From Macrocystis pyrifera (Eukaryota; Sar; Phaeophyceae; Laminariales; Laminariaceae): DNA of 64,000 nt. Position 1 is the stretch's first letter. Every line of letters begins with the position of its first letter. Below are positions 4,395-49,085 of the stretch, one piece after another. Where the stretch lies: assembly GCA_031763025.1 (NCBI GenBank), contig JASSKH010000038.1, positions 186,001-250,000 on the forward strand, in the 5' to 3' direction. Both the position numbers and the translations under genes were made by a program. The notes below the pieces were generated by a model that was given only the letters and a program-made list of their open reading frames with translations, did no database searches and had not been told where the DNA came from.

Positions 4395-4478
4395 GTGTTG
4401 CATATCTGTCTGAACGCTCCTTCGTACAATCCGAAGGCAGAAATATTTTGCTGATCTACTCTATCGGGGTTGACGGAA
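4395..4478 (+). pseudogene. Decayed Pmp-repeat cassette exon (donor site lost)
   Basis: After the acceptor CCCGCAG, a stretch of exactly 84 nt read in phase 1 begins GVAYL and ends VQSEGRNILLIYSIGVDGR. This matches the length, the start (G-x-x-Y-L) and the G-G end of the cassettes downstream. The usual GGAG|gtgag junction has become GGAAGAGAC, so no GT donor remains, and the conserved Phe and Asn are replaced (NILLIYS in place of NTTFVTN). I read it as a dead cassette, which implies that the array once reached further upstream. Confidence 0.55.
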
Positions 4479-4520
4479 GAGACAAGCGTGTGTTGAAACA
4501 AGTGAAAGGGTGTTATACCT

Positions 4521-4539
4521 GGGGGGGGGGGGGGGGGGG
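4521..4539 (+). repeat. Poly-G run of 19
   Basis: A 19-nt homopolymer of G follows directly after TATACCT. A similar 17-nt run lies at 38711-38727. Such runs are prone to length errors in sequencing. Confidence 0.8.
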
Positions 4540-5048
4540 TACCAAGTTCAACACCACAACAGTTGTTTTACCCCTACTGTCATATTTTCTGTATATACCC
4601 CACGACTTCGAACATCGATATCAAACAGCCTTCAACGCGATTCTAACGAACTAATGAATGCAAGATAGCGTTTGTATTGTCACCTGAGAAATACCTCGCT
4701 CTAGTGTACGATGGTGCCGGGCCATGGCAGGTTTGCCAGTGGCTGGTGCCATTTAATTTATTCTTACTATAGGTTGGCATCTTCACTTTTCGCTTGGTAC
4801 GATTGATGCTGAGCATAATGTACCGCATTGCTTTCCACCGTCGAAAGGCGTCAATATCATGTGTAGGTGGATATCACCGCTATCTATATTTTATACACAT
4901 GCTAGTTCTTACCGCGTTGTGCTGTTCTTGTGCGTACTCTACCACATGCAGTACAAGCAGGAATCCTAGATGTTGCATGATCTGCAGTCTAAGGGGTGCT
5001 TGTGTGTACGAGAGTACTTCGTGCCAACTTTGAACTCCTTATCCGCAG

Positions 5049-5126
5049 GAGCTAGTAGCGAACCTACCAATGTTCCCATCAGCTTTGACGGTGAATCCCA
5101 CTTTATCAACAACATGGGAAGCAGAA
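5049..5126 (+). CDS. Pmp cassette exon, 78 nt
   Basis: Acceptor ATCCGCAG, donor AGAA|gtaaca. Read in phase 1 it gives GASSEPTN followed by VPISFDGESHFINNMGSRS. F-I-N-N-M-G matches the F-x-x-N-x-A/G core, but the closing GG is RS, so this is the most divergent intact cassette. It is 6 nt shorter than the common 84 nt, still a multiple of 3. Confidence 0.6.
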
Positions 5127-8100
5127 GTAACACCCCCCTCTGAATGACACGTTTCAATGACCGGTTAGTTTTCACCCGGTGCAAGCCTAGAATTCGTCTC
5201 GTTGGTGGTTTGTTGCGCGTATAAGAACGTAGTAAATATCGCCGACGCTGAGGGCACAGACCGTGCCACCGAAGACATCGTACCCGTGCGTTCTAAGCAC
5301 CCGCCGTAAACGAAGGGCCTCGGGGTGTTTTCTCCCCGAACCATTAAAGACGTGTGGGCATGTGATGGCCCAGGCGCTTGATTCCCTCCGCAATTAGGCC
5401 GGTGTTATGTAGCCCAACATTGATCGACCCAAGATGCGGGTTTAAGTGACCTGTACTGTCCGAAAATAAAGCTCGCAATGTCAACGCTTCCCGTTTGAAC
5501 CCCTTTCGACGCTATATGATACATGTTTTTATCATCACATTTACTTCCAGCTTAACTCGTGGTAGGAGGTTTATCCTCAGCGATCTTTTGGACAAGCCGT
5601 GATCACGGGTTTCGTTCCTTGTCCCCTCCGCGTACGTGCCGTCATTTTCATCACGCATAGGATAAGGCATTCCCACTGTTTGTCGGCTTCCATTAAATGT
5701 TGGTAACTCACGCTCTCGCGCTACCGCTAATGTTTTTTTTTCACCAAAATGTCCCTACGAGTATGCCTTCGGTGAGACTTGAGCCCACGAAATTGATCTT
5801 GGTAGCCACACGGGCCACCATCCAAGCCCCCGGAGACTTCTGATTTTGACTGCATTAATCACCAGCAACATGCCAGTAACACGCCAAAATACTAAAGCCA
5901 TGCCGGATGTGGCGAAAATGGTCTGAGCGTAGCACAGGTCATTGTCGCGTTATCTATTGTCTGATGATAACTCGTTCAACCTTCGTTTGTTTCTTTCAGG
6001 TGCCATATACGCTTTTCGTGGTTCTTCCGTTCATATTAATGATGGCAGCGTGTTTCACGGGAATTTCGCTGAGGACGGTGGAGGTGATCAACCAATTTGA
6101 CGTAATAAAGAGAGGCTTGCTCGTATCGCTCGTGGGTTGGCACATACAAAGTACCTGCTGAATATTGTGATTGTAATACCAATAAGGACTTCTCACACTA
6201 GGTATTTTTTTTTTTCAAGTCTAGCCTGTCGTTAGAATCGTCGTCGATGTCCCATTGGAATAATATCATAGCCATATTACGAGCATTGCTAAAACCGTGA
6301 CGTTGTGCGCGCTGTACCGAAGCGCGCCGGAACATGGTGTGCAACACCGAGATCCGACGCTTTTCCGGTAAACTAACCTTAGTTATGCCTGACCTCACAC
6401 TCACCGGTTTTTCTGCACATATCTCTAGGCTACCAGCACGCGTCTGATTTATGAGGACAGCGCCTAGTGTTGTCGTCGTCCGGGGATCGAGTACTCTCTG
6501 CTGTGGAAGAGTATCGCGTGTGGCCTTGTCTCGTCGGCATATATGTGGTTCCGTTTGATGTGGTGTTTAAAAACTAAACGTGCCCACCGCTTTGTTTAAT
6601 TCTCCGTTCAAAGGTAAACATGAACCATGTATATTTGAAACCATCCACCAACAGCAATGTGAGTCGTTCACCAAATCGCTCTCGAATCCGTTGCCAGCCT
6701 CCGCACTGTATCGTTCCTCACGATTCATAGTCCCGATAGCAGAGTCGCGCGCTGGTTTCCGTCGTCGTAGTCCTTCGAGTCGGCTGAAGACCTTCGAAAC
6801 AACTGTGTCCTCAGGTGCAGTATACCTGTACGACAATTCCACCGTGAACATTGAAGGCAACACAACTTTTGTGACCAACTCAGCCGGGGGCAACGGAGGT
6901 GAGATAAGCCCCAACTCGTAGAACAGTACAGGTCACCTGAAAACAGCATTCGTATACTGAAAGTCTTGCCACTCTCGAAGGTATATATGCATTTTATTTC
7001 GACGGTCTGCGCTTTTCTCCGAAAGCATGCTAGCCACACCCGAAAAAAAAAACTGAGTCACTAAGATGTCGACGAATATTTGGCACAGCACTCGCATGGT
7101 GTAGATTGCAAACGTACGTGTGAGATAACGTGTGGAAGTATGTTGTGATCGATGAACAAGAAACATTTGACGCGTATTTCCGAGTGCCTTGTATAGTTTG
7201 AGGCATGCCTGCATTTCATAGGCAAGGGATGTTTGGTGTCAAAGTCGACGACACGAGCTGGCAATAGGCACTATCGACGAAGTTCGAATGAATCACGGAG
7301 AAATCTGAAACTATGGTCTATACATGTTAAAGTCATACCGGCTTTAAACTACGCAGTGTGACACGAAGCCCGGCGCTGAAAATACGTATTCTGTGGGGGG
7401 CTCTTACCTCCAGTGTTCTCGCCAACGTTGTTAACGAAAGTCTTGTCGCCATTGATTATGTTTGAAACATTCATATCTGCACCCAGAGCACCTGGGGGTC
7501 GAAATACGTTGTTTTTGGAGTTTTCAGCCTGCGAAAACAATGATTCCCAAACACGTCCTGCTTCGCCTGCACAGCGTGTGATGTATTTCACATGGATACG
7601 GAACTTTCGGCTATATGGCCGAGTGTCCGCCTATGCAGAGGCTCTATTGCCATTCGATAGCTCCTTCACGGGAATGGCCAGCAGCACCCCCTTGCTCCAC
7701 AATCCAGTCAAGGGGAGCGGGGTTGAGAAGAGTGTCTCGAAAAAGACAATAATCCAGCCGGGAATTTGGCACCGCTGACATGTTTTTGTTGTAATTGTTA
7801 ACAAAGTCGTACCCCTGTCGTATACAGACACCTTGTCACACGCGTACGGCGTATATCGCCATTAATCGGGGAGCATGGTCTACTCTTATCAGTCGTGGTG
7901 TCGTGATGTCGTCCGAAAGGTAGGTATCGCATCGTGTGTGAGAAATGCTAACCGTAAACTATTCCTGTAGGCCCGATTCGAAGGATGCATGTTTGGGGCA
8001 GTCACACACAACACCAGTCACTTCTAACCAACACTCGTGTTATATTCTACGTTATCTCCGTTATCTCCCCGCAGGTGCTATATATCTGTATGATGTCTCC

Positions 8101-11100
8101 TCTATGAAGGCTAGCGGCAGCACCGCTTTTCTCGACAATCATGCCCACAAATATGGGGGTAAGAAGGCGTCCCGTATTGGAGGATAATACAAGCAAATTT
8201 TTCACAGCGTTGAGGCCTTGTAGACGTCAACAAAGTGGTCATAACAATATCGCGATATTATGCTGTGTTGGTTCCTGTTACTACTCCTAATTTTCACGGC
8301 CGTGGCTCCGACTTTTGCCTGAAATTGCAATTGTTCACTCTGGAAGAAACCGTCGAGACTAGATGTCAGTCTTTGCATACATGGGCACTCAACGTGCCCT
8401 GTTGTGCGGGTATGAGCAGGTTGAACAGCGCATAATTCCTCATTTTTCACAGATGTTTTTCGCTGAACATTGATACCGATACTTGTATATGTTTCGTTTG
8501 GATGGTCGAAGCTAGCTACCGTGTTCCGCACTTCTACAGCCGTACAGAGACTATAAATAGTGCCGTGCCAACTCGCCTCTCAAGCACGTGCAAGTACAGC
8601 ATCGACGCTACCCGGACCATACGTGAGGGTGTCCCCAGTAACTTTATTCTAAGTGTGTATCAGGCATCCCCTGATTCTCATCGTATTTGCTCTCTACCCA
8701 CAAAAAAATCAGCCTGCAGGTGTCATCGGCGTCGTCGGTGTCCTGTTGGGCCGAAAAAATATATCACACAATCAAGTCCTACCGCGTACAGTACGAAAAT
8801 TCAGTATATCAGTTTTGCTGCTGTGGCGAAGCATGCCTGGACACGATCAGCGACCCGGCACCAACTGTAGAAATACTGCGAATATACATGGCTCCATCCG
8901 AAAGCCTTCAATTATTCCCACATTCGAAAAAGCAGTTACGCGCAGGTGTTTGGCACTGGTGTTACGTTTACTGCATCTGGCATCCACGCACGTGGTTGAT
9001 TGAGGTCGCCCACAAAACGACGCTCGTTTAACGCCATACGTCACACGAATCCTACCTAATATGTTCCAATTCAGCGTGAATGCATGTTAGGGCGGTGAAA
9101 ATGCACATCTTCATTCGTTTTGTTTTTACCCCGACATATTAATGGCAGCATTGGGGTCAAGGCATTGTCGTATCGCTGGCGCAAAGAAAATAGGCCCAAA
9201 ACAATTTATTCTGAATTGTTTTATCACGCGGTGGAACTGGTGTCACGCTGTCCATTGTCTGCAGAATACGGTCGACGCTTACACACAAATCGGCTGATGC
9301 GACGATAGATGTATGATCTCGACGCAAAATCAACCCACGGCCGACCCGGTGCTTGCCGGACAAGGCAAGCGACTGGAGATTACGACCTCGAAGTACGATG
9401 ACCCTCTAAGGGGCGACAGGTTACCCGGGTTGTCATATCGTCTTCATTCACACTTGCAACAAGGCACACGCTTTGCTGTCGAAGGGAGAATAAGCTGAGA
9501 TGTCGTCTGTTTTGGAAACACGAGCGGCGAACAATATAGGTATCGGGCACGTGACCGGCATCCGCCACAAGTGACCGCCTTTTCGCGTGCACCCTGTTAA
9601 AGTATTGACGCTGATGTCTATACACGCACGTACTCATCAATTCGGTGTGTAGTCACTGCGCACGACTATGAGTATCTGTTTTTAGGTATCGGATAAATGG
9701 AATTTGCGACAAGACTTTATTACAACGCTTCATTCTGCACATCGTACTTCAACATACCAAGTTCGGGATGTTGCTTGTATTGCTGATCAGCTAGCTCGCC
9801 ACCCTACGTAAACGGGGATATTGCTAGTCAGCAGGCAATTGGCCAATACAAGAAGCCCGTAGTTCATCTACCCGTAGTGTATGCTTCCTCTTAACATGGC
9901 CGGGCGATGGTCGCGCCCACCATAATCGCTCTTGGTATTTTCTCTGTTCCCTACGAGTCTTATTATATGCCCGTTGGTTTCCATATTTCTCCCACACTAT
10001 TTCTACCAACCTCACCTTTTCCAAGATTACATGTGTTGTTTGCCGTCGTTTCACCAGCTATGTACGGTATAGTTTATTGTAGAGACAGAGTCTAGGCATG
10101 CATGATTTCAACACACACTGTGAACGTAGGATACATCGGAGTCCCCAATAAGCTAGCCGCGTCCAGAGTGAATGGCCCGGTCGTTGGTTTTATCCAGTGA
10201 AGTCTTCTGTGGACTCATATTTCCTCTCTGATAGTATGATAGGCCGGTGTTTATCAGCAGAGTGTTGCCCTAGGATCTTTAAGTACGCAGGTGAATCCAT
10301 TGTTTAAACGTCGGGATATTTGTCCGCGTGGTCGAGCTCGATATGCTCGAACGAATGCCCGGGACGTTCGTTGAGGCTGTCATATCGTATAATCTGAACC
10401 TTGTTAGAAACGCTGACGCTCGCCGCACCAACGGCAACAAAATGTAGGCCGTGCCCATCAAATCAATGGGATTTAATAAGTCAGAAAGGTCTTCGGATTT
10501 GCTGATGTGTGATGCATGGTGTTGGCAGGCTTAGACTTGGTGCGTATGCCTCATGCGTTTCTGTAGTTAAGGGTTGCAACCGTTTCCAGATTTGTGCTGG
10601 ATGGGTCGTTGCTTTTGGGAGATTGCTAATGGAATGACCCAGACGTACTGTACAGTTGGTAGTATCAACGTTGTATACTTTTGCGATGCATATCATGGCT
10701 AGATGTAGCATACTTAAAGTACCTATATCCTCCCAATCTTCGTCAATGGACTGCTGGTGACATTGTGGTTTACTCCACGGGCACTGCGCCGTGTGTCGGA
10801 AGCGTGGGTTTGGACGTTCGAACAGGATGTGTTCATGATATCTTCGATGTGATCAGAGCACTTGTAAACATCCGTTGCGAAATTTACAGGTGCCGTGGCC
10901 GTTAGTGACGTGTCTAAAGTCGGATTTTCCGGCAGCGTTAGTTTCGTCAACAACGACGCTGACATGGACGGAGGTGAGACTCTTGAAATATTATGTGATA
11001 TTCCTGTTTTGTTCGATTGCCATGCTCACAAAACGTTCAAGAATACACGTACAGTTGTCACAGTGAGGCGCCGATTTATAGATAGTGTATCGTTTAAAAA

Positions 11101-14100
11101 AATGGCAGGTTTCGCCTTGGTGCTCATTCCGCATGCGTTTCAGTGGTTACATGTTGACGGCCGTTTCCAGATTTGTGTCCCCAAGGGTCACTAGTTTCGT
11201 GGGTTCGCTGGTAGAATGACCGAGAACTACTGTACAGCTGTTAGTACTAATTTCGTACTTGGTATGCGTTTCCGATGAAAACCCTGTGTGTATGTATCAT
11301 GCCACACGTATATAAACCCTCCCGGTCTACGCCAACCCACTGTTCACGTCATTGTGGGATGGTTTTAGTGCACTGCACAGAGTGTCCTGAACGTGGGTTT
11401 GGATAATCGCACGAGTTGTTGTCGAGACATGTTCGATGCGATCAGAACACCAAACATATATGCTGCCAACTTCCAGGTGCCGTATACGCTAGTTACGCTT
11501 CCTCAGTCAACCTTGCCGGCAACATCACTTTCGGCAGCAAACTCAGCCGACATGAATGGAGGTGAGGCTCTTCATATATCACGCGTGGTCGTTTTGTTTT
11601 CGGTCCAATGACATACGAATAGTACGTTCAGGTATACACGTACTATGGTGACAACGAGAACGCTCCAAAATATTCGCCCGTATTTCCAGTTAGTTGCATT
11701 CCGACAGGCCCACGGGCCCGTTGGAAGGAGAATCAACGCATAACATGACGGCGTCGTTGCTCTGTCGATGGTTGCCTGAAGGTTGTCAGCAACATACGGT
11801 GCCGTCGAGAACAATATTTTCTCATCACACGAACCCATTCCCTGGTTGATTACCCCTTTTATATCCAGCACTAAATCACTGCAGGGTCCAGACGACGTGT
11901 GGTATTGACGGACTCCAAATACAGGTGGGATCGCTTGCTGTAAATCTCACTAGGGGGTAGACCTGGGGGGGCATGTCTCCCCTCAGTCAGCGAGATTCAT
12001 CATGGATTAATGTATGCCACCACAGAGGTATGTAACTTCGGAAGCCACGGTCCAATCCCGAACCAAAGAATGCTGAAAGGGAACCGCAACACAATACACA
12101 TATCTCGTCAGTCCAAATACTGTGATTGCAAACCCTTTTCTGGACCGTGTGAATTTGGACTATCCACCTCGAGCAAGTCATAGGTCAAACCCTTTTCTGA
12201 ACCGTGTGAATTTGGACTATCCACCTCGAGCAAGTCACAGGTCAGGTTTTCCCGCGTAGTTTCAGTTACCATGTTATGAATGTTGAACTTGCCGTGAATC
12301 ATGACGCCAGGGACCAGATGCGTGTTCGGACTGTTGTCTTGGTGGTATTTTGGAGGGGGCCGACAAGAGTGATCACACCCCATTCTCCTACCCGCAGGTG
12401 CTATCAGTGCGACGGAGGAGGCATCCATCGACATCACCGGCAGCGCTTCGTTTTCCAGTAACATAGCCGATAATGAAGGAGGTAACAACGGCCGCGAATT
12501 ACGTTGTTTCAATGCCGGGGCTGTTGTCTTCCTGGGCGAGCTCGATACTCTCGATTGTATTCGCAGGACGTTTGTCGTTGCTGATATATCGTGTAATCTG
12601 AACCTCGTTAGAAACGTGGACGCCTGCGGTACCGACGGCGATAAAATGTTAATCGTTCCTGTTATCTCATCAAGATTTAACACGTTAGGAGGGTCCTAGG
12701 ATGTTCCACATTCACGATTTAGATTTCATGTATGGTTTATGGGTTTGGCATGCTTAACGTAGGTTGGATATATATGCCGCATGCATTTCGGTGGTTACTT
12801 GTGGACGACCGTTTCCAGTGCCCCGATGGATCACTGTTTTCGGAGTTCCCTAAGGGCGTGGTCCAGAACTACTGTACAGCTCATAGTGTCAATGTTGTAT
12901 CATTTCCGATGTACATCCTGTTTAGATGTAGCGTACCTCGACGTAAATTCTCCCGTCCTACGCCAACCGAACACTGCTGATGCCATTGTCGTATACGTCA
13001 AGTACCCTGCGCCGAGTGTTGTGAACGTGGGTTTGAAGAACCGCACAGGCTGTCGCCGTGATGTATGCAATGCGATCATAACACATAACTTATTCGTTGC
13101 CAACTTCCAGGTGCCATGTTCGTTAGCGAGGATTCCTCAGTCGAGCTTGCCGGCAACAGCATTTTCGACCACAACTTCGCCAGCGCCGACGGAGGTGGGA
13201 TTCTTGAGATATTTCGTGGTCGTCTTGGTTTCGGTCGATCGCCACACACAACTTGAATACAGGTGCACGCGTACAATGGAGGCAACGAAGACGAAAAAAA
13301 TATTAACTCCTGTGTTCACTTAGTTGCAGCCCAACGTTTTGTTCAGGTTCAGGGGCTCGTTGGAAGGTGAGGCAACGCATAATGTAACGGTGTTCTTACT
13401 TTGTAAATGGATGTCTGAATGTTGTCAGCATCGCTGATGCCTTTGTTTCAAATATGCGATCACACGAACCCACTGCCACTTCGAGTACTTTCGTTATGTA
13501 TCCAGCACGCAATTACTGCAGCGTTGAGACGAAGCCTGGCATCGATGGGCTGCAAATACAGGAATAATCACTTGCTTTAAACGGGCTCACTGGTGGGCAG
13601 ACCTGGGTGGGCATGTCTTCCGAGTCAGCGTGATTACATCTTGGAGAACAGTATATTGCAGTAGTATGGAAGCTTAATTGCTCCGGTTCAAACCCCGAAT
13701 TGAAGAATGCTGCAACGGAACCGCAACGCAGCAGTGCACGTGTCGATCGTGCAACAAACGTCTCCTGGCATCTAACCCCGATCAAGCGTTGTATATAGAA
13801 TGGGGTGAGGGCCTGGTCCAGCATGAAACGTCGCGCGCCTGTTGCCCTCGTTCTACTCTGTCGAGTGACCTAAAGACCCTCGTTCACTGACGTTGCCCAC
13901 CCACAGGTGCTGTAAATTTATTTCGAGAATCCTCTATGCACACTGTCGGCCGCACTACCTTTCGCCACAACACTGCCGGGAATGAAGGGGGTAAGAAGCG
14001 TCTAGGGATATTCGGTCATATACCGAGATAGCATCTCGTGTGTAACCCCATACTCGCCAATTCCCCTCAGTTTCGTGTTGGCCAATTTGTAGAAGAGGTT

Positions 14101-17100
14101 GTTGTAGTCAACATCCTCACATCACGCAGAACGCATGTTCTCCGCCGGTGCTTTGCACCCCATCTGTGCTTCATGTTACAGAGGTAGGGCCTCAATAAAC
14201 AACTAACCATTGTGCTAGGAAAAGTGGTATACGAGGCGAGGTTGTCTCATGCTTGTAGTAGCCCGTGTGCATTCGACGGCATATTACGTACGTTCGGAAT
14301 TTCATCGAAAATAGATACCTGGTAGAAGAAATCATCTTAAGGCATTCCGGGAAAACAGAATTCCCGAATCCCCACGCAGCAATATTCAAGGTAGCCAAAT
14401 CACCGCATCCAGCTCGAGACAGCTTGCAATCAGCTTCCCGACGCAGGCTTTAGAGGCATCGGTTTTTGTTGTCCAAAGCCCAGGCGAACTCATTTCGGTG
14501 TGCCGTGCATGCGTACGTGAAAATTCTAAATCGTTGTACAACGCCCGTTGCCTACCCGTAGGTGCCGTCGTACTGCGGTTTACTTCGTCTCTCCATATGG
14601 AAGGCGACAATTTCATGTATGACAGCTATGCTGGGGCTTCCGGAGGTGAGGATCGTCTTGAGCATACATGTAGGTTGTGCCCTGTTTGTTGTAGCGCTGA
14701 GAAAAAGCACCAAATCCCACACTGGGTACAGTCTTGAGTACGACCATACGGTTGAGCATATCGACAATGGCATCCCATTTGCGTACAAGTCTGAAGAGTG
14801 AAATGCGGGTTAAGGCCGGGCGTGGCTTCACGTTGGGCCAATACTAAAGCCTACGTAGAGTCCAAACAAGCACAGCATCAGTGGCGCTACTACAATATCG
14901 CACATTCGAACACCGTCGAAGGCATCGTTGGCCTTGCACCGACCCAAAATTGAAGATTTCGCTATTATCATGAGCTATATCTATATGGCTATCATGATAT
15001 TGACGTAATGCCAGGATGTCGACCGATTCTTCAAAGGGTTTTTCCTAGGAAAATACTGTAGTGAGGAATACGACACCGCCTGCGAGAGCGATGTGGAACA
15101 CCGCAACCAACATATCATGCGGCATGATCTTGAGAATATCGCCGTCGACTATCGTTGTGCTTGTTAGGACGAACGAAGATTCGTACCGAGAAGAGTGGGG
15201 CATGTATTTACGGGGATGGGTAAAGCGTCAGTGTCATCCAGCGGTTCACGAATATTTACGGGAACATAACATTTGTGTAATTTAACGCAAATTAGGTCAG
15301 CAATCAGGGGAGTTTCCCAGTTACCTACCTGGGGATGAAATATGCGCATCCCCGGCATATAAATAGAGGTGTTTTTTGTGCCTGCGCTAGAACTTCGTTT
15401 TGGCCTGTTGAACACTGATGTAACGCTGTGTTGGCGTGTAAAGCTGTGCAAGGATGTCTTATGTAGAGGTACGTACTTACAGTAGGCATACCCGGGCAAA
15501 ACACTTGGGTATGTACCCGTACCCGACGTTTAGGTACGTTAGATACGGCCATCGATACATTTCGTAAGTGTTAGGTTCGTTAGATGCGGACCTCGATACG
15601 TCACCTAAGTATCAGGTACGATATGTACGCCGCTCACATACACCAGGGTATCGGGTATACCCGTCGACGAAATACCCGGGTTTGGGTACGAGCCTGGGGG
15701 ACGACCTCAAGACCTCAAGCCTACGTTTTAGGTGTACGTTAGGTACGGATACCGATACCTTACTCAAGTGTTGGGTACGTCAGCTACGGACCTGGATACT
15801 TTACCTCAGAGTTTAGGTGCGATAGGTACGTCGCTCCAATACTTATCCGGGTAGAGGTAAACCCGTCGAACGAATATCCGGATATAATTTTACCTGGTAC
15901 GTGATACGAAGAACGTTTAGCACGGCATCTGCGAGAAAAAAAACTCGAACTCAAAAAATGCGAATTAGACCTGCGTCCTCTCCGCTACATACCCACGAAC
16001 GCTCCCACCTGGGACACAAACAGAACACCTGTCGCCCAGTCGTGCCTAACCCAGGGGATAGAGTAGCGGGGTGTACAATGAGAGAAAACCACTGGTACCA
16101 CGAGGGCCAAGCTCCGTCGAACGAGGGAGCTAGCACACAGGGCGATCCCCAGCGAGCTATCACAAACATCTATTGCATATTATGCTGTAGCCCTTGGGGT
16201 ACAGGATGGTGTTATTACTGTTTTGTAGTAGGCTCTTACACAGCAAAACCAATACCGGTATGTGGTGATTCATTGAAAGATAAATCGCGTGTTCCTTGAA
16301 TGTACGTGAGATCAATCGTACTATAATAGCAGCCCTCACTGGCCGGCCCACTCAGTATATACAGCAATAGCTGTTTCCAGTAGATTACTCGCCAGTACGC
16401 ACTCTACTAGTGCCCCGCCCCACCAGTTTGTCGTGTGTTTTGTACGGGGTGTGTGTACTCGGTCACTTACCCGGGGACGTACCCGTATCCGCACTTAGGT
16501 ACGGCCTCGAACACGTTTCCTAAATCCTAGGTACGCTTGGTACGGCGATCAATAGGTAAACAGGGGTAGAGAGTATACCCCTACAGGAAATATACCCGGG
16601 TTTTGGTGCAAGCCTGGGGACGACTTCAACACCTAACCCAAGTTTTAGGCACGTCAGGTACGGATCCCGATACCTTTCCTAACGCAAGTGTTAGGTAGGT
16701 CAGGTAATTACCTCGATACCTTACCTATCGTACGTGTTTCGAACGATAAGTGCGTTGCACCAATACTTACCTGGGTATAGGTATACCCGTCGACGAAATA
16801 CGCAGGTTAAGGTACATACCTGGGCACGACCTCAATATGAGTACCTTGCCTGGGTTTAGATAGGTTGGATGCGAATCTCGATACCTTACGTAAGCGTTAG
16901 GTACGTTTTGTATGGCCATCAGTACGTTATCTAAGTTTTAGGTACTCCAGGTATTGTACTACCTCAAAAACCTACCCGGGTACAGTCATACCTTTACCTT
17001 GCCTGACACCCCCCTGCAGCTGTGCGTTCTCATCACGTGTGTATCGTCGAACACACGATGATGCCTCATATTCTAAAGACAATAACAGCCATGCTGTGCT

Positions 17101-20100: not shown

Positions 20101-23100
20101 GGCAGGCGCGGGCTCGGCCCTAGAGACCAAGAGAAGCGCATTCGGCACGCGCCTTTCCGTGGATACGTACTCTTAGACTACACTGCTGTACAGCAGCAGC
20201 AGCAGTCAGTCAGTCACAAAATGAAACACAAAATACAAAGACAGGTTGACTCTAGCGCACTCGCCACGTCTTTTCGCCGCCAGACCAGAGGCAGTCAGTG
20301 CGGGCTCGGACGCTTGGGTCCTACGCGCAGGGCAGCGCACCCAGCGCGTCTCTTCGCGGCGCCAAACCACAATAACAGCAGTTGGTCTCGGCGTTTGCTC
20401 GAATCTCTACACGCACAATACATATGATTTTTTCGCATAGGAAGACTCTTTCATTTGCCAGCTTCATATCTGAAAGAGTGCTATCGGGTCAAAATCGGAA
20501 TCTCAAAAATCGAACCGCATAGGAATCGGCCGGATAGAAATATTTTTATCAAGACCGAAATAACGAGGGTTGAGTCAAACCGGCACCATTGTCCCACCAT
20601 TGTCTGTAACAATGTATGTAGATGAAGGCATTCCCGTGGATATTGACGCGTTCACTGCAGTAGGCTAGCATTTCTTTCCGGTGTGCAGTTGGATATTGAC
20701 GGGGGACATTTAGCGTCACAACAATAGAGCACATCACGCTTCAGTCCGGGCACATACATCCTGCCCGTCTCTCTAGAACTTGATGCCGAACGCCTTAAAT
20801 TCCTCCCCAAGATCCTTTATCCAGTCCCACCACTGTCCCCCGGCGAAGCCCTTTTCCCCCACCATCTCCCCTACACTCTCCTCGACAGGTGCTCCTCTTC
20901 GACGAGTGCCACGAAGCCCGCAAATAATATACTTTATCTGCCCACCGTCGTCTCAACGCTCTCGGAGTCTGTCCTGAGGAGCGCGCTGGCATAGGTTTGG
21001 CGATGGCCTTCGCGCTTGCGTTTCCGTCAGCCGAGGCGTCAGAGTAGCATCAGGTAGTAGACCTTCCCTAGTCTGCCTTAATCAACCTTACTCGGGGTCC
21101 ACTTGATGCACCCGCAGAGTAGCGTCTCGATTTCCTCGGCTTTCAGCATCCGCACCTTCCGGCGTAAGCGTACACCCGGACGGTCATATACCATATTATC
21201 CCGCCTGAACCACGTCCATGCTCTCAGGAGTTGACGCGTTTGCTCACTACTTCTGATGTCTCAATCTGCGCTGCTAGCCCCGCCCAAGTTCACAAAATCG
21301 ACCGATTGTTTTCACACCTGGCCGGCTGCGGTAACGGTGAACGGCACGGGCCACCAGTTTTCGTTTACAGGCACAGATTATTCCGGTTTAGCGCTGTTGA
21401 CATTTTTTTTTTCGTTGTTTTCCTATCCTAAGTTTCTCTGTAGGTGCTGCTTCATATGTTCTACATTGTTCACGTCAGTGAAGGCTTCTGAATGGCACGC
21501 TTCTCAGTGTATTATGGTCAACATCTACACTGTATGAATGCATTCCTTCTCCCGCGCGTTAATCAAGCAACAGACTGCAGTAGTCCCTCGGTCGAGCCCA
21601 TTATCATCGACAGCAGCTATGGATCGATAGCTTGTGCAACATATTGCGATCGACATGGCTGTCGATAGATATCCCACACAATCTATGGTGGCCAGCCATG
21701 GCCATGAAGAAACGAAGTGCACAATATATTGTGGTGGACAACACCATGAATTGACAGCATCGCCAGTCTCTTGCCAAAACATACAATAAACTCTTCTACA
21801 GAAAACCCGGGCATTAATTTTTGCTGTGACAATCCTGGAATATGTCCTCCGCGGTGCTATTAACTTCAAGCTTGAATTTATGGGAGCGCTTAGTTGCAAC
21901 CCATGGGTTGTAAAAGAGACACGCAAACATCCAAACTGAGAAACCCCCGGGGTTCCACCACTAACCGTGCCCGTCTATGTGCACCCAGAACAAAAAAAAA
22001 GCACAAACTGCAAGAAAAAAGCGAAAGAGGAAGGGACAAAACTATGTATGTCTTGTGAAATATGAATGCATCAGCATCTAGCTGCAAAAGCAAGCAAGCA
22101 AAGCACCCAGCCGATCATACACAAACAACACTACTGCTGCCGTACTACTGTACATAGGTTCCTGCTGCTCCTTGCCCGCGCACATTGTATCGCTTGTCGT
22201 ATAACTGTAATAGCATTCCCACACAGCAGCATGCACGCAAGAGTCCTGTTGTTATTTCTCTCGTTTTTTGTTGGCACAACACTCCGGCCCAACAACACGT
22301 ACAGCAGAATACCAGCAGCATCCCCATATAGTGTACGTACACACCCTAATAGATTTCTCCACGCCATACACCACGCTTGTTCTATAACTGGTGGTGGTGG
22401 TGGTGGTAAAGCGATTGTGTGCTGCTGCGGATGGGAAGAGTTTGCCCCTACCTCTGCTGCTGCTATGCTGCTGCAAGCATCATCATCAGATAGATTCTTC
22501 TGTTGTCGCTTTGACAATCTGTCTCTCGACGCAACAAAGAGCAACAAACGTAGTACGCTTGCAAGCCTCGAGTGAAAGTGAAAGCAGACGACGACGGCAG
22601 ACAGCAAAGCACAGCAGTAGGGAGGAGTGAATATGTGTGCTTGTATCATATCCCATACGTATTCATCGCCTCACGTTGTGTCATATACAGCAATACCTGC
22701 ATCATATATGGATAGGTGCAGCAGTACTTCGAGTTGTTTCTCTCTTTTTCTCTTGCTTTCTCTTGCTGTTCGTGTATTTTTGTGTTCTGGGTGGGTGGGG
22801 ACAGCTAGAGGTGAAATCCTGGGATTTTCACTGATTGGATGTTTGGGTGTTGGTTCTCTTTTACAACCCGTCGGTTGTAATTAGGCACTCCCTAAAATTA
22901 TGCCCTGGGGCCTTTAACTTTTGGCCGGGGCATACTGTGAAGAACACAATGGACTTTCTCGACCCCCGAGGCATTACAAAGAACGAAACAAACTTACACC
23001 TCCCTTATACATATCAACGCCACAACGAGAGCTGTTGGTCATCACTCAATCGCCTTGCACCGACAGGGCGCCTAGCTTGGATGAATACACATTGGCAACC

Positions 23101-26100
23101 CCTACACCGCTTGGCGGGATTTGCATCGTCCTGATGTAATGGCGCCCACGAGGTGGGGCGCGTCGGCGCCCCTGTATAGCATACTAAGCGTTTTCCTCGT
23201 CAACGTTATATTGGCTGTGTCATTTCTGGTCATTAACAAACGGGCTGATCTTCATCACGCGCACATCAGCGCGAGCAGATATACACGCCATACCGCATTG
23301 CATGATGCCACGGCTCTCGCTCCAGCGGCTGCGTGACAGTTCGTAATGTAAATAAAGAACCCGAACAAAAGTGATGGCTCCTCTTTCCTCGTCTCGGTTT
23401 GTCTATCTGGCTGTGGCGGAAACATGTACGTACCCACACACCAACGTTTCTCGTGTAAACCATCCCCTTTCTTGCTTGGAAAACAGCTTCAACCCTCACA
23501 CTCAAATATATGACTTGCCAGGTCGGTGCCCGGGTATTTACCACAAACCATTGGAGGGGGGGTGTTTACCGTATAGCCGGGGCGGTCCACGGGGTTGATT
23601 TCAACAAGGGGTTTTTTTAACGCGGGTGTTGCTCATTTCCAATGAAAATAACGCCCCGGAGCGTTTGCCGTGTAGGTGACGGTCGAGTAGCTCATTGCGG
23701 TGTTCTGTTCTGCGGCCGCAATGTGATCTATTTATTTCGCCCATCAGTAATTTATGCACTAATCTAAGCGCCGGATATGAGGTTGGTGCCCTCGCGACAT
23801 CTGGGCAGCCCCCGCAGCACCCCTTGAAGACGTCTAATACTTGCCAACATGTCAGGAGTGCGTGGCCGTTGGCACGCATCTGCTGTGTAAAAAACGATCG
23901 ATGATGAAGTGCTTCGCCTATACGAGTATGCAATGCATTGTTTCTCTATTCGGTTGCATGGCCACGTAGCGTAGGGGGCAAACATTTTGGACCCAAGTAT
24001 TCCAGACAGATGGGGATCTTCCACTTACGAACTACCTAATCGCCTTCAAAGGTCATGATGCGCGTACATGTTGAGCTGTTACGTTCGTCTTATATATAAT
24101 ATGCCCAACCATGAGTTTAGCGTACTGTTTGTATCGCGATGTAGCTTTTGGGGTAAGATACGGAGGTGTTTCGAACCTGATATCCCATCATTTTATATCA
24201 AGTACCTCTTATTCGGCGACGATCCCTTTTTTAATAAGTTATTCGCCTGATGTCCCCTCAGTAGAATTTATGCATGCATCGCTCTGTAGATGACATACAA
24301 CGATTTGCTTCCCAATAACTGTCGTGATGCGCCACTAACGGATATCCGCTTTTCCGTCCAACAGGTGTTTTCCGCTTAACCCAAACGGAGGTTCATATCG
24401 ACGGCAACACTTCCTTTACTTTCAACTCAGCCAACTTCCAAGGAGGTGAGAAACCTACAATAGGTATATACGTACGGCAAAATAGTTGACGATGTTGCCG
24501 TTTTACTGCTCTCCTCGAGAGTCGTCTCTAACAACCTACAACTTTTGGCGAGCCCGACACTTTGGCTAACGTCATCAAGAGCGTGCTTGTAGTACGCAGG
24601 CGATGATTGCTTTCCGCGGAGCAGGCCCAATTTGCAAGTTGGAGGTTGTGGGTTGTACCGTTTGGTGTACCCCAATTTTTGAGCAATTTCGACAAACGTG
24701 CAGCACTTCAATATCAAGTGTAGGTCGTTGTTAGAAGGGTGGCGGCCGTAATAGAGAGAGGCACAACCTGCTGTGGATAAAACACTAAGCCGGTACACCC
24801 GCTCTCTGCTGAGCCACAAATCAGCCCAAGGCTCATACTCAGCGTATTGAAAGAAGGATTGAATTTTCTTCGCAGATGAAACGCCTGGGGACCCCAGCAA
24901 CCGTTCAGGGGCGGTGGACAAGATCTCCTCGTGGCCTACAAAATGTTGAATTTTTCCATACACTTTTTAGGCCTTTTGTTTATGCGATGTATTTAGTTTG
25001 ACGAAGAGTGTGGACGGAAATTCATTTTATAGCGCCGCCAATGTGGTCAGATAGTGCCACAACGTATTTGCGGCACCTGTTTCATACAGCAACCTTGAGC
25101 AGACAATGGCTCCAGCTACGGGTACTAAACTCAGGTTGAAATCAGACCGGCGATGCGTGTGTTTTATATGTAACATACGCCACAGCACGCACAAGCAACA
25201 GGATCCGACTTGTCTGCTGCACGCAACCTGTATCAGTCGTCTACTTGCCCACGCATGTCCAGTCCTAAGCCCGAGGCTCTGACAATGATGCCGGGGAGTT
25301 AGTATGCGGTGGATGAGCCTCGAGGGGAGGTCGACGACGATCATATCTGGCGCCTCCTACTACTCGTACTACTGTTGCTGTCACTTTGTGATTGAATCCC
25401 ATCCCACTCCCACTCCCACTCCGACTTGGACCGTTTCCGAGTTCTACAGGGCGGAGATGATGAGTTCGGCTCGCCGAACACGCTCGACAGACTATCGTAT
25501 TTCCCGTCTGGGCGCCGTCGGCTCTCACTATGAGTCAGCGATAGACACTACAACGTTCGCGAGTTGCGCGCGCAGACGCACACATCCTGGGCGATAGTAG
25601 TCGTCGCTTTATTGTACAACGTTCGCTCTTGTAATATGCGAGTACTGATGTTTAGTAGCCAAACCAGTTAAAACGACATTGTTGGCGTACAAATATACCT
25701 GGAACAACTGAAACCGAGTAAGAAAGTTGAAAGCTGAGAGCAGAATTGTTCAGAACCATTTTTTAGCCTCTGCAAATCTTGCACCGGAAACGGCCTTGCT
25801 ATGACTTGGTCTTGCTCGTGATACAAGATGGCGAAAAACAGAAATGGCGGAAATCGTGACCTCAGCGTGCTCGTTGAACCCTGCCGGTGGATAACCATAC
25901 ATCCAGATTCAGTTTGCACGGCTCAAGTTCGGGTGAGATCAGGTCGTCGTAGGATACGGATTGCCAAGTCGGAGCAAGGTGTTTAGAAGCACACTTCTTG
26001 TAGCAAACGTGTGTCTTGATTTTACGAGTCTGTGCCTGGGTTTGGCTCCAAACGGAACCAATATAACGTATTTGTTTGTGTTGTTGCCCTTGTTTACATG

Positions 26101-29100
26101 CAGAGACTTGCATACATACATATTACCGCTTTTGTGCCTATCTAAACGATGGAGACCGAGCTCCAAGAACCAGTGTCTCACCGAGACTCTACAGCAAACA
26201 CATATGTACAACAGGTCCACCAATGCACAGCCAGCCGCGCAAAAAGCAGAACAATGAAGGTACATGGCAATTGGAAAACGCAATCGAGCAGGTAGTCTAA
26301 GAGTTTTCCATGGGCAGCATGTCGTCGAGCACTATCTACCAACCGCAGTGTTTTTCAAACAATGGGGTCGAAATCTGCCCGCCTGAAAACATCATTGTTC
26401 GTACAACCAGTTGCATGGTCATGCGCAATGGATTGGGCTGTACTTCCCGTTTCAAGCATGTGTTAAAGCCCTAATACATCGTATGTATCTCCGTCCGTTC
26501 ATTCCTACATGCATCACTGCGGCGTCCGGGTTTTGGTTTTTGCGATCGAGCTTGTTGGCAATATGTACTGGAGGAACTCGTCGTAGTGTTATACCCAAAC
26601 AAGGGATATCTCTGTGTCGGCTTCACTGCGGCTTACTTTGTCTTCCCTTGAGCAAGCCAAGAGGGCAAAAAAACACTTTGACCCTTACATTAACCCTATG
26701 ATTGGGGCACGAGTTGCACCATTTAAACATATGTATGCAGTCAAGTGGGGCTTCTCAGCCTGGGAACTGCCGAGGATGGTTAATAGGTAACGTTTCGACA
26801 CAAGTCGAAAAGGGATATGATGAGTAGTGGGTTCCGGTTTAGTACGTACGTAGTGTTGCCATATGAGCTCTGCGTATGTTTTGATTCAAAGCCGTTTCGA
26901 AAACGTTTGATTTGGCAGGGGCGCCTCTCACAGGGGTATCGAGCCTCTCGTTTTTGTTCGTTAGGGATTATACCAACATCTTCAATATCCCGTGAACGCT
27001 ACTTTTTAGTAAGATGCCTTGCGTTTGTTTTTTTTTACCCTGCAGGTGGTGTTTGTTTCGCCACGCAATCAGAAATTAACTTTGGCGGCTTCACCCACAT
27101 CAGCCACAGCTCAGCCTACGATGGAGGTGAGAACGAGCCAGTCATATGTGGGCTACGAGCTGATTCAAGCCGTAGCACGTCCAAGTTCCTACGCACTCGA
27201 GGTCATTTTTCCAAGCTACATGCTGAATTTCAGACTGCGTACACTTGTTTTGCTATATATTGTACGAAATACCAAACTTGGTCAATTTTATGTTGTTTTT
27301 GTCTGAAGAAATAGCCGAACGGTTGGTCAGTTGGGGTCATTCGCGCTTCCGAGCCTCCTGTAGTCGGGCAACACTAAAAAAACAATCGCAACATTGTCGG
27401 TGTCGGCTTGGGCATGGGCGCATACAACACGTGCGCCAATTTCAGGGTCTATCTCAAACGAACAGCGTGGCGTTTTTGCTGCTGCGTGAAGATGTGTACA
27501 ATTTACGACAGCATTGCTTCATTTTTAGTTAGTTATAGAGAAGGCTAGGCGGTAGGCTTTGTGTAGTCTCTTGTACGTGCTATTAATCCCTCTGTGTGAG
27601 TTCTTTGAATGGTTCCGCGAATCTTCAATCAGGCGTATGTGCTGGATTATCTGACACCAGCTGAGTAAAACAATTGCTTTGAAAGTATTTATTTTACATT
27701 TATTTCAAAGTGCCGATTGTTTGGGCCTCTGTAGCTAGGAAACTGTGAAACCGATCTCGAGGGATCTCTTAGAAGCTAAAAAACAAATCAAGTTGTATCC
27801 AACATCACTAACCACCATGTTTCCAATGTTGAAGCGATTTTGATCAGTTTGAGAAGATAAACTGGGAAATCGTTCACGAACGTCTCGGCACTGTAAACCT
27901 ATTTGGTTCTGGACATATGCCATACGTTCATTATCACCAGTGAAAGTCCACGGTGCAATATTTCTGACATATCGTTGATTATTTGTATGCGCAACACCTT
28001 CGCCCAATCTACTAACTCCGGAGGGCTAACCCCGTCTTGAAGCAGCAAATATTAAGTTTCACTTAACCCTTACACACGGGCTGAAATCAAACGGGCTGTG
28101 TTCAGCCGATGCTTCGAAAACAAAGCATATGTATGGCTTGTTAGACGCGTTCCACTTTGCTCCAGTCAAGTCAATGCATATGCACATATATTCGAAGACT
28201 TTTCGCCCCCCCCCAAAGATCTACACGACGTGCGACACAATTTATGGGACGCAACCCATTATGGATGTTTACCGGTCCAGTATCACCAATTTGGGTATCC
28301 ACCTGGGTGTGTACCCAGCACATGCAGCTGGTACGATCCGATATCTTACCGAAACGTAGCAAATATTGATGCGGTCTCACAACCCGGCCTACGTTTCAGG
28401 TGCGTCAGATCCGGCACTCAGACCCTACCCGCGTATGAGCGCGAACTGGGAAACATCACCCGAAACGTATAGCCGTGAGTATGTCCGATTCGTACCCGTG
28501 TTTTTCGTGAACGTCATTCTCCAATTTCTACCTATCACGTCATATATCCGGCCGAAATTTGTCGCGTTAAGCACAGAGAAGTGCCCTCCCCTGCCACACA
28601 GACAACGTACCCAACCCACGGGTTAAGTAGTGTCATGGACAATGTGCTAAAGTAAGTATCAGCACAGCCAGACCCTAACACCCCCAAGCGGTGAGAAGTC
28701 GGGGATGACCGAAATCGCGCCGGGAAAACTCTTGACCGTGATCACGCCAAAGTTTGTTAACAAGATCAAGCGATATACTCGGCAGATATATGATCTCCCG
28801 AAGGAAAATGGTATAATCTGTCGATGTTTTCGTTGCGCCGCGTGGGTATCGGGGAGTTAAGGCATTCGTGAGGCGTCCATATACTCTCTAGGTTTCTACT
28901 GCGGGCTGGCTGGACAGAACGACCTCAGCGTTGTCTACGACCACCTAGTCGGCGGCAAGTGGTGTTCTGGACGTGTCGTGATCCCCGAAGCAAGAAAACA
29001 GGGTAACCCGTCGAAACCATGCCCGGGTATGGGTATGAACTCAAACCTCTATACTTACGTAGGCTACACCTAATTTCCGGAATGCCCTCCGATATTTGCC

Positions 29101-32100
29101 TATGTGTGTTTGGAGCTGTTCTTACGCAAGATTCGATGACGATTTGCGAATCGGTAGATGCTGTTAGTCGAAAACCAATCTTCGGTCGGCAACTCGGCTG
29201 GTGGAGCCACCTGACGTTCGGTCGACTTGCCCAATGAACTCAGCCCAGAAAATCGGGCCCAATCAACCCTCCCCGGACCACGAGGCCCAGCCCGAAAACT
29301 ATAACAATCACGCCTTCAACTACTATTCTTTCAAGTATGGAAACCGAATACGTCGACTAGTTGGCACCTGCGGGACAACTAACTGTGAATCCGACAATAA
29401 CTTAGTTGGTGACTCAAGTTGTGCCGACTAACCGCTATATTACCTTACATTAGGAACAACCTCCGATACGTACTTGCTGTAGGATCTACCTGGCTTCACG
29501 TATATAACGTCCGATAATTTCCTGAGTTCTACCCTGTACCTATTAATAGTGTAATGTTAGATGCAACCTCTGTTGCTTACCCAAGGTTTCGGTGCGTTAG
29601 GTACGCCGGTCAAACCTTACCCAGGTATCGGGTAAATCCATGGAAACGATTCGCTGGTATGCGCACCCCACCCATTTTCTAATATGCACGTTTGGTACGC
29701 CGGCCGACCCTTTTCCAAGGCTTAGCTATGCGTCACCAAACCCGACCTAGCAGATATGCCACCGATTCTAACCCGTGGGAGAAACATGTACCTCTGAGTA
29801 TCCCTCGCCACATTGCCCGTGGGATATTTATTCCACTACTTGTGGATTCTCCGCGAGTTGAATGCATCTATGAAAATGTGTGACCTATCTTGCCTTCTCT
29901 TACGACACGAAATCACTATCTGGAATGCTGCGGGCGATGAAGTCTACGCCAGGATATCTTGCGGCTCGAGGTTTAAATATCAGTTGAGAGCCGATTGTGG
30001 CACATCCAAGAATCTTGCTTGGTCCAGCGTATGGTAACCACAGGGCAGCTTCAAATGTATCTAAAGGCTTGCTTTTGCTCCACGCGGTTCGCCGCCACGA
30101 CCATGACCAGACAGAAATAAAGTGTTTCGCGGGCGTAGAAATGGTCCCCCGTTGCAGTGTTTGGGTTACTCTCTTCGATGATCATGATCCTACCTCTTAT
30201 GTCCCTTGAAAGAAGGGCGAGAACCAGCAACGTGTACGTCGTACATCCGGTATGTTTGGATTCCAAAACAGAATAGTCTAGGATCAACCCATATATTACA
30301 GCAGAGTTGCATCACGCCGGATTAGTCTAGGATCAAGCCATATATTACAGAGTTGCATCACGCCGGATTACGCCATTAACGACCGGCAGCATCGGGCGGC
30401 TATGCCTATATGTTGCACTATGGGTTTTCGTCTGGGAAAATGTTCCATATTCCCTCGATAGTTTAATAGTTTCCAACCATGGTGGCTTCCAATCAATGAT
30501 GATTATCGTTGGCTTGTTGCAGGTGCTTTTCTCGTGGATCAATCGTCGATCAACGTCTCAGGCATCGCAACATTTGCTCATAATGAAGCGATCCGCGAGG
30601 GAGGTGAGATAGAGAACAGAACGTGTTGTGAACACGTTTAGCGCATGTCATAGGATATGTATCACAGGGGGGCATAGCAAATAGGACCTACGGTGAACTA
30701 AGAATATATACATTTCCCTATTTTTACATACAAATTTTGATCCTATTTACTATGTCCCCCCGTAAAAGTAGGAATATCGTGTTGTTGGCAGAGGCAAACG
30801 AAATCTACCGATCAGTCAGGCGGTTGAGATTTCAAACATGTCGCAGTATTGTCCTCACCGTACGTTGTCCTTACTGTGTCCAATGCCACTACCTACTGAA
30901 ACAAACAATGCGCACCAGCAACGAGGCAAAACATATCAAGATGTGCTTTGTGAAGAAGGCCTTCCATGCACTGAGGTACAGGTCACAGGTATATGCAACG
31001 GCCCCATCGAAATGCATGCGGTAGACGTGACATCCGCATCGCCAACGAATGGAAGAATAATCGTGGATGTAAAGCAAATGTGGTGGCTATACTGGTCGAC
31101 TAACCAACGTATTGAAATATTCATTTAATCGTCTACCCAGTCTGTCCGATGATTGTCTTCTCAAGCGCACTGAGGCGTACGTATTTTACAATGCCGTGGA
31201 AACTGTTTCCGTCCGGACGAAGACCGAGAGAAGGGAAGAAAAAATTAGCCGAGCGGGTGTTTGATAACGAAATATCATTTGCCTCTGAAGATGTTGGTAT
31301 CATACCCGAAACATAACATTCTTACGTAGATACTTTGGGATGCGTCCAACTTGGAATGCTCGGTTACAGCAGTGCAGATATATGTACTTCCACCAACTGC
31401 CTTGGTGTTCAACGCGGACGTGATCATCACCGGAGAAGGTTTAATTCCGGTTTGAAGGATAGCTTGAATATGAGGCAAGGCCGGGGGAGCGAGGCCATCG
31501 AGGCTTTCTTTTTCCTGTAGGCGAACACGTCTCTTCAACTCTGGCACATGCGCACACCGCTTCTAGACGTGTGGAACGTCTTTTGACATAAGTTTTAATG
31601 GAACTACACATGCGGCCTAAATACATCGAGGACTGAAAAATAAGCCTTCGTAGCATGACATCCATTATCCGTGTGGCCTACGCTGTTCTTAGGAGCATTC
31701 AAGATGATCGACTCCAGCCTTACGATCGCCACCGGACCGCATGCGGGGGAGCTTTCATCAACCAATAACTTAACCCAAGGTAGGGGAAAATCGAAGATAT
31801 TGCGTTTCAAATGATGCACAGCACTCTCCATGTCAGGCCCAAAATCGGAGGAGGTTTGGAGGAGGTCTGAGATATAGCGGTTTGGTTGATTGTATAACAA
31901 ATACCGCCACTGACTGCAACAGGATGTACACTTTAGTCGGAGAATACTCGTTCGGTGCGCCTACCGGGATAAGGCGGGGTAAACCTGGAACGGCTCGTGA
32001 TCTACCACGAAGGAATATTTGCTAGATTTTTAGTTGTTTCAGAATTCATACCGCAGTTTCAATGATACCGAAGTCAGAAAAGTCATAAAAGGATGTTGTG

Positions 32101-44080: not shown

Positions 44081-44131
44081 CTCTCATGAAGGGTGTCGTA
44101 CAGATGTCCGTAAATATATTAACAAATGTTT

Positions 44132-44692
44132 CAGCAGGGTACAGCTCTCAGACCATAAAAAGGACCTGCGCTCGTTAGATATCTGAGGCCGGCTCACCTG
44201 TTGTTTGGGAGTTCGAGGAAGTGCCTTCAAGCAGTAATGATCGGGTCACGCAGAACGTGGATCGATGCAATGCAGTAGATGCAAGCAGTTGGCGTGAACA
44301 CTCAACGAAGCATCACAGACACGATGACGGGCAAGACGGGCAAAGGCAGGGCCCAAGGGGCTGGGGGTCGATAGGACAGGTATCACAGATCACTTGGCTT
44401 TGACTTTCTTTCTTCACTCTTGGTGGTGTTTTGTAAACACCGGGTGGTCCCGGAACCTCGTTACTGGCTCTGTACCCGAGACCGAAGGCGTTCCCACACC
44501 GGGGACCCTCCCTGCCCCTATAAGATCAGCCCAGAGGATGCTAACCAAAGCTTGCCCTCTGCCTATCGAATAGACCCGACGCGTGACCCTGATCAGGACA
44601 GTTGTCTCGCGCCGTATTATCCTCCCCATAGCGCTGGTCACGACAGTCACAGCGCTATGAACCTCCCTCCCTGGCGCCACCCGCTGCAACAC
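44132..44692 (+). repeat. Composite dispersed element, longest copy
   Basis: 44132-44537 is repeated with high similarity at 52017-52411; 44533-44692 is repeated at 56693-56854. Here the two parts are joined, so this looks like the fuller copy of one family from which the others are truncated. No coding frame is conserved. The two 400-nt parts have the same orientation, but no retroviral-type frames lie between them, so I do not call them LTRs. Confidence 0.6.
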
Positions 44693-44759
44693 CCCCCCTG
44701 CCCGACACACAACCATTGTCGGCACAAAGCGGGCGCCCCGGTGCTAGCCCGGCGACAGC

Positions 44760-46241: not shown

Positions 46242-46490
46242 TTATTCGAGTGACTTAGGTCGTTTCAAGGTACTGACGTTCACGCCACATCGACTTGCTG
46301 GCACTAGCCAAGGTAAATATTTGATTCCGAGTTAAGAAAGTGTTTGTGAAGCTACTGGCGTTTGCGCCACCTTTATTCGAGTGACCTAGGTCGTTTCAAG
46401 GTACTCCACATCGACTTACTGGCGCTAGCCAAGGTAAATATTTGATTCCGAGTTAAAACGTGTTTGAGGGTACTGACGTTTACGCCACCC
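46242..46490. repeat. 131-bp tandem repeat, two units
   Basis: TTATTCGAGTGAC-TAGGTCGTTTCAAGGTACT starts at 46242 and 46373, followed each time by CACATCGACTT-CTGGC-CTAGCCAAGGTAAATATTTGATTCCGAGTTAA. A short indel separates the units. Confidence 0.75.
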
Positions 46491-48969: not shown

Positions 48970-49085
48970 AAGGGAAATGCCAGCGTACCGGTGAATACCG
49001 GGTAAAGCAAGTGAATTGCCAACGTACCGGGTACGAGAATACCGTAACGGGTAGAACAAGTGAAATGCCAACGTACCGGGTACGA
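48970..49085. repeat. About 50-bp tandem repeat (GAAATGCCAACGTACCGGGTACGAG)
   Basis: Three units containing AARTGCCARCGTACCGG and a trailing GGGTA-A-CAAGTG recur with indels. Confidence 0.6.

Follow-up and report, generated by a model that had tools for sequence, protein, structure and literature searches.

We here describe an array of short exons in the kelp Macrocystis pyrifera, each encoding one coil of a Pmp-type beta-helix, in a stretch of 64,000 nt of genomic DNA (GenBank assembly GCA_031763025.1, contig JASSKH010000038.1, positions 186,001 to 250,000 of the forward strand) that is referred to as the window throughout. Based on the anatomy and phases of these exons, the open frame that they form with their neighbours and homology to other brown algal proteins, we propose that the array is probably part of a nuclear kelp gene of about 50 kb, with one coil in each exon of the array, that encodes a receptor-like membrane protein with a Pmp beta-helix outer domain. 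In the labels used here for contigs of the kelp genome (C128, C197, C126 and C202), the window is C128:186001-250000 and a second copy of the locus lies on C197.

Anatomy of the cassette array

Twelve clean coil exons were identified on the plus strand of the window, nine of 84 nt (6000-6083, 6815-6898, 8075-8158, 10890-10973, 12398-12481, 13111-13194, 13907-13990, 14562-14645 and 18575-18658) and three of 81 nt (24365-24445, 27046-27126 and 30523-30603), all with phase 1-1. Each is framed by AG|GTG at its 5' edge and by GG(A/G)G|GT at its 3' edge, and encodes one complete coil of the pattern Gly-...-F/H..N-like...Gly that is cut within the second Gly of the GG pair, i.e. exon unit and structural unit coincide, as claimed in the initial annotation of this DNA. 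A thirteenth plus-strand exon, 5049-5126 (78 nt, phase 1-1), is open with AG and GT present in both copies of the locus, and represents the weakest of the set. It ends in A, which gives Ser instead of Gly as the second residue of the pair (the second copy has G), and the earlier statement that the cut always falls inside the second Gly therefore applies to the 12 clean exons only. With this exon included, the count of thirteen intact one-coil exons of 78-84 nt given in the initial annotation is reached; however, the exon that opened that count, 4395-4478 (plus strand), is left out, as it is an open coil frame with an AG acceptor that is damaged through loss of the GT donor in both copies. A further plus-strand relic, 11477-11561, carries one extra base (85 nt) and is frameshifted here, its counterpart in the second copy being open. 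The array exceeds the window, with another coil exon found at C128:175570-175653, 10.4 kb upstream of it.

A clean, open 84-nt cassette with intact AG and GT is also present on the minus strand (7408-7491), an orientation that makes it unusable in a plus-strand transcript. As regards a possible minus-strand gene built on such cassettes, a single inverted cassette was found in the whole window. At the C197 locus the inverted cassette is doubled (225042-225135 and 225239-225343); by eye, one of 84 sites differs between the copies, and one of the C197 copies is without the AG acceptor.

Identity of the coils

A protein coil profile was derived from 42 homologous proteins, which contributed 476 coils, and the window itself was kept out of it. 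Nine of the 12 clean exons score above 15 bits with this profile, 30523-30603 and 14562-14645 reach 12.0 and 9.9 bits, respectively, and 27046-27126 is missing from the candidates above 5 bits; exon 5049-5126 scores 12.1 bits. Across 20 dinucleotide-shuffled windows the highest score was 11.8 bits. A DNA profile trained on 11 window exons recovers four cassettes from outside the training set, namely 27046-27126 (33.5 bits), 11477-11561 (66.5 bits), the inverted 7408-7491 (33.0 bits) and 4395-4478 (22.4 bits), and does not list 5049-5126, which has 2.3 bits with a protein profile trained on the cassettes.

In the 42 relatives, successive GG sites are most often 28 residues apart (188 spacings) and next most often 27 (120 spacings), corresponding to the 84- and 81-nt exons. 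Joined into one string, the coils match PF02415 (Chlam_PMP) of Pfam with an E value of 1.8e-15 and 55.8 bits (cut-off 20.6), in agreement with their earlier assignment to the Pmp type. They are predicted to adopt the parallel beta-helix fold, as the structure model of a relative displays a beta-helix whose coils have three strands each. Foldseek against the PDB returned nothing at E <= 0.001, and VIA-align on the Foldseek candidates found beta-helices. Among solved structures searched by sequence, none matched the whole-protein profile and a single one matched the membrane profile, at E 0.35; Rfam and tRNA scans gave no match.

The proposed gene model and its predicted product

A start-and-cap exon was placed with the help of the N-termini of homologues. 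This exon (C128:172417-172894) lies 13.6 kb upstream of the window, opens with a signal-peptide-like sequence (read by eye) and ends in the same phase-1 cut as the cassettes, GGA G|GT. Five plus-strand exons with GT-AG ends follow the array at its 3' side. The first two complete the coil region, 32352-32633 (282 nt, phase 1-1) with about 3.5 coils and a PF02415 match at E 9.8e-6 on 32288-32632, and 32963-33234 (272 nt, phase 1-0), which has a weak acceptor context, with the last coils. Exon 33622-33913 (292 nt, phase 0-1), supported by tblastn of the homologue P0121, encodes a Cys-rich region, 34161-34462 (302 nt, phase 1-0) a Cys motif and the first membrane helix, and the last exon, 35148-36164 (1017 nt, phase 0), a predicted seven-helix membrane domain and the stop. 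Joining 20 exons, with 5049-5126 included and 4395-4478 and 11477-11561 omitted, yields one frame of 1267 residues with a single terminal stop. The window part of this model, without 5049-5126, is collinear with P0121 (EukProt g15619.t1) at 37% identity over 1020 residues.

PF02415 is the sole Pfam family that matches the whole 1267-residue model at E <= 0.01 (E 4e-9, 36.2 bits), and neither a ROC-COR nor an NB-ARC core was detected in that scan. Chlam_PMP was present in all 26 relatives scanned, in company with TRP (PF06011) in five, DUF7630 in five and Notch/LNR in three. PF06011 matches five of the 26 relatives, with a best E value of 1.1e-7, and matches neither the last exon nor the whole model. 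The last exon is predicted to be mainly helical, both in its own low-confidence model and in the model of a relative, and the named relatives among the best 120 of its 294 matches are from Laminaria digitata (up to 68% identity) and Sphacelaria rigidula. No relative of this seven-helix (7TM) exon was matched in IMG/VR.

Autotransporters possess a C-terminal beta-barrel. A bacterial autotransporter was considered for this locus and rejected, since the C-terminal exon is predicted, at low confidence in its own model, to be mainly helical, and those of its relatives that carry a name come from brown algae.

Paralogous loci with uninterrupted coils

Within the same genome, nine distinct paralogous loci each hold one open frame with 10-24 coil-profile matches; they derive from 10 of 12 records, L004 and L006 being left out. 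As these sampled loci keep their coils in one frame, the cassette design is not family-wide. A genome-wide coil search, as suggested alongside the initial annotation, scored 150 of 489 candidates, and of the 118 matches listed the six of single-coil length all fall in this locus or its second copy. As far as was seen, the cassette design is hence special to this gene among the loci sampled.

Clusters of Pmp paralogs with uninterrupted coils are located at 2.9-3.5 Mb of C126, where the longest coil frame has 1204 residues, and at 9.5-9.7 Mb of C202. One clustered paralog (L003) is preceded by Cys repeats that appear Notch/LNR-like by eye.

Origin of the cassettes

Self-comparison of the window reveals three tandem intron-exon-intron units on the plus strand (10300-13730), at 10300-11052, 11103-12093 and 12504-13730, that are 67-69% alike and surround exons 10890-10973, 11477-11561 and 13111-13194. 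Beyond these units the introns of the cassettes are no longer alike, and at E 1e-3 no other family of similar cassette introns was found, shared repeat elements aside. The coding sequences were compared for ten 84-nt cassettes, nine in the window and one upstream. Of 321 instances in which two cassettes share an amino acid, 164 also share the codon, compared with 39% expected from their own codon usage; under a within-cassette null with the first and last two residues removed (residues 3-26), one draw in 300 was as high as observed. Without 10890-10973 the proportion is 136 of 257, and none of 300 draws was as high. In a comparison with the coils of paralogs, base composition is a partial confounder. 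In addition, CGTT starts at exactly position -16 in 7 of 16 cassettes and in none of the five 3' exons, a motif that was picked after seeing the sequences.

The shared intron-exon units, the synonymous codons and CGTT at -16 together favour descent of the cassettes by duplication of one cassette along with its introns, a history that is apparent for three cassettes and would extend to the rest. The initial annotation had instead attributed the array to a cutting up of coils in the eukaryote, and the same three observations speak for cassette multiplication over that account. In its explicit form, the alternative is that a multi-coil ancestral exon was split by introns, such as introners, inserted wherever a GGA-GGT coil junction offers an AG|GT-like proto-splice site. 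The paralogous loci, with their many coils per open frame, speak for such splitting, as does the identical GG(A/G)G|GT junction of all 12 clean exons. Against it stand the three units in which exon and introns are alike together, the synonymous codons shared beyond codon usage, CGTT at -16 and the lack, at E 1e-3, of a further family of similar introns around the cassettes. We regard it as quite unlikely, although it may apply to some of the cassettes.

A second copy of the locus and the state of the gene

The region C128:158607-247791 matches C197:185746-283379, mostly at 88-93% identity. C197 was read from position 184001 on and the left end of the second copy was not reached; collinear homology spans at least 89 kb on C128 and at least 98 kb on C197, with right limits at C128:247791 and C197:283379. 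Introns of the two copies diverge by 6.65% (21 alignment pieces, 87.6-93.8% identical). The published Macrocystis assembly stems, according to the accessible part of its description, from one haploid gametophyte, with a nucleotide diversity of 0.0035. Hence, from this divergence and the haploid source, the second copy is a duplication rather than an allele. That the C197 copy is an alternative haplotype or an assembly artefact, with the differing losses being allelic, is compatible with homology that is long and collinear. Yet a haploid source and such low diversity fit poorly with introns this far apart, the homology moreover ends at defined right limits on both contigs, and this possibility is very unlikely.

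The copies have lost different cassettes, 11477-11561 in the window copy and, in the C197 copy, the counterpart of 8075-8158, which is without 11 nt and the GT donor. The C197 copy also has two additional bases at the end of the 13111-13194 counterpart, one extra base in the 32963-33234 counterpart and two extra bases in the last exon, four codons before the stop; among these, the one-base indel in 32963-33234 is the sole indel bound to break the gene. Exons contain five indels in 3483 columns, where 18.9 would be expected from the 209 indels in 38,615 intron columns (P 1.7e-4, or 0.0017 when the change in 8075-8158 is counted as three). Likewise, mismatches between the copies number 186 in exons against 231 expected (P 8e-4).

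These data bear on whether the locus is a decaying pseudogene, with coil exons that persist as relics but have ceased to be spliced. Such decay would account for a dN/dS of about 1 between the copies, for the damage to 4395-4478 and 11477-11561 in the window copy and for the C197 indels in 8075-8158, 13111-13194, 32963-33234 and the last exon. It is at odds with the intact 1267-residue frame over 20 exons in the window copy, with indels and mismatches being rarer in exons than in introns, and with the fact that just one of the five exon indels, that of 11477-11561, breaks the frame in the window copy. We therefore judge it unlikely and retain the reading of a gene in which individual cassettes have been lost.

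Several observations weigh against the explanation proposed here. For the 12 cassettes that are undamaged in either copy, dN/dS is estimated at 1.10 (bootstrap 0.60-2.44); the three C-terminal exons give 0.84 (0.51-1.48), and similar values are obtained across all 15 cassettes compared (1.07, 0.64-1.96) and in 32352-32633 plus 32963-33234 (0.89, 0.41-2.40). With dN/dS near 1, protein-level selection since the duplication is not demonstrated, nor is positive selection shown by the 12 cassette pairs. The C197 copy is not clearly dead, which leaves the near-neutral dN/dS without explanation; relaxed or mixed selection may be involved. Cassette 11477-11561 is frameshifted here and 4395-4478 is without a donor, and intron homology is detectable for three cassettes only. 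Exon 32963-33234 has an acceptor with a poor pyrimidine tract, the assignment of the start and the signal peptide was made by eye, and the structure model of the membrane domain is of low confidence (pLDDT 53.7). Finally, no transcript was seen among the best 120 of 941 matches to the model, in which the nearest relatives share 36% identity along almost all of the query; with the coils alone, none of the best 120 of 148 matches exceeded 44%, the best with at least half of the query covered being 39% identical.

Comparison to known systems

As noted in the initial annotation, brown algae provide a precedent for one repeat per exon. In the accessible text of Teng et al. 2024 (PMC11378527), which cites earlier work by Zambounis et al. 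2012, LRR-ROCO genes, which are candidate immune receptors, are described with one LRR per 72-bp phase-2 exon, alternative splicing and positive selection. The kelp array is similar to these genes, as far as that text describes them, in its fixed-length one-repeat exons, symmetric phase, tandem arrangement and exon gain and loss. In contrast to a 72-bp phase-2 exon in a ROC-COR protein, the unit here is a Pmp coil of 78-84 nt in phase 1, and the predicted protein has a signal-peptide-like start and membrane helices. For NB-ARC-TPR genes, the portions available of PMC11378527 and PMC12879055 refer to repeat exons that are shuffled and alternatively spliced (Teng et al. 2023, Plant J). The repeat-per-exon design is common to both, again within the limits of those sources; however, TPR repeats are there carried by an NB-ARC protein, and neither domain is found in the kelp model.

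Pmp-repeat membrane proteins are predicted in Ectocarpus, Scytosiphon, Laminaria and other brown algae, and the kelp model agrees with those aligned in domain order and in the GG coil, the closest being 37% identical to it over 1020 residues. It differs from the nine sampled Pmp paralogous loci in its own genome in that the coils are split into exons. The PF02415 coils and beta-helix fold are shared with chlamydial Pmp autotransporters and bacterial Pmp-repeat proteins, which, being bacterial, lack introns of this kind; the kelp gene has introns separating the coils, and a Cys-rich region and an alpha-helical membrane domain at the C-terminus. A Saccharina 'polymorphic outer membrane protein' is named in the part of PMC10573767 that is accessible.

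The literature was searched in part, with subscription papers mostly outside, and within this scope none of the papers listed deals with exon shuffling of Pmp coils; the initial annotation was equally unaware of a Pmp receptor with one coil per exon. With one Pmp coil per phase-1 exon, in a membrane protein that has an outer domain, the kelp array departs from the ROCO and TPR systems in repeat, phase and place. If the cassettes are spliced, the one-repeat-per-exon design reaches a third, unrelated repeat fold and a cell-surface protein, and would therefore represent a habit of the lineage rather than a quirk of LRR or TPR genes. Because the genome contains one-exon multi-coil sisters as well as a second copy with other losses, a natural comparison is at hand, which could ask whether symmetric cassettes speed the evolution of repeat domains or permit alternative splicing.

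Proposed mechanism

We propose that the gene operates as follows. The transcript would join cap, coils and membrane part, each cassette adding one coil, to give a protein that begins with a signal-peptide-like segment and an N-terminal cap, continues with a Pmp-type beta-helix and a Cys-rich stalk, and ends in a multi-helix membrane domain that is TRP-like. As both ends of a cassette are phase 1 and lie in the GG turn, loss, skipping or duplication of a cassette keeps frame and fold. Cassettes may have multiplied by repeated duplication of the exon plus its flanking introns, and single cassettes could die without destroying the gene. In conjunction, the length and face of the ectodomain could change fast through exon gain and loss, perhaps also through alternative splicing. 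Judging from the domain order, we infer that the ectodomain may recognise glycans or surface molecules, either microbial or self, and that the membrane domain may signal.

Alternatively, the cassettes may be mutually exclusive or skipped in combination, in a Dscam-like manner, so that the mature protein contains a chosen subset. All clean cassettes are symmetric 1-1, hence any subset stays in frame, and alternative splicing has been reported for the repeat exons of brown algal ROCO genes. On the other hand, 42 relatives hold 7-24 coils with 25-30-residue spacing in one protein, and in the one isoform pair noticed, P0147/P0158 (g16884.t1/.t2), the difference lies by eye within the Cys-rich region, the coils being unaffected. 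Choice among cassettes is thus a possibility that we consider tentative, and joining of all usable cassettes is the arrangement preferred here. A still more speculative, somewhat doubtful extension is that the protein is an extracellular counterpart of the exon-shuffling immune receptors of brown algae, in which different subsets of coils would provide a membrane channel or receptor with many beta-helix ectodomains, the repertoire being renewed by birth, inversion and death of cassettes.

Putative mobile elements and repeats around the gene

A segment of 12.7 kb at 44124-56853 is absent from the corresponding place on C197. Its end repeats pair 44126-44537 with 52011-52411 (95%) and 44530-44692 with 56692-56854 (99%), as in the insertion of a mobile element, which it resembles. 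Within an intron of the receptor gene, about 1 kb at 21875-22899 with inverted arms of around 165 bp (73% alike) is present in both copies and looks like a small DNA transposon. Short MITE-like inverted repeats, intron-shared or palindromic, are located at 1185-1372, 17389-17682 and 789-1149. Just 3' of the gene, 37763-38123 forms a perfect 181-bp tandem duplication, for which the comparison suggests a single unit on C197. Lastly, 120-nt tandem repeats (3.8 copies) at 44906-45357 lie within an open frame of 255 codons.

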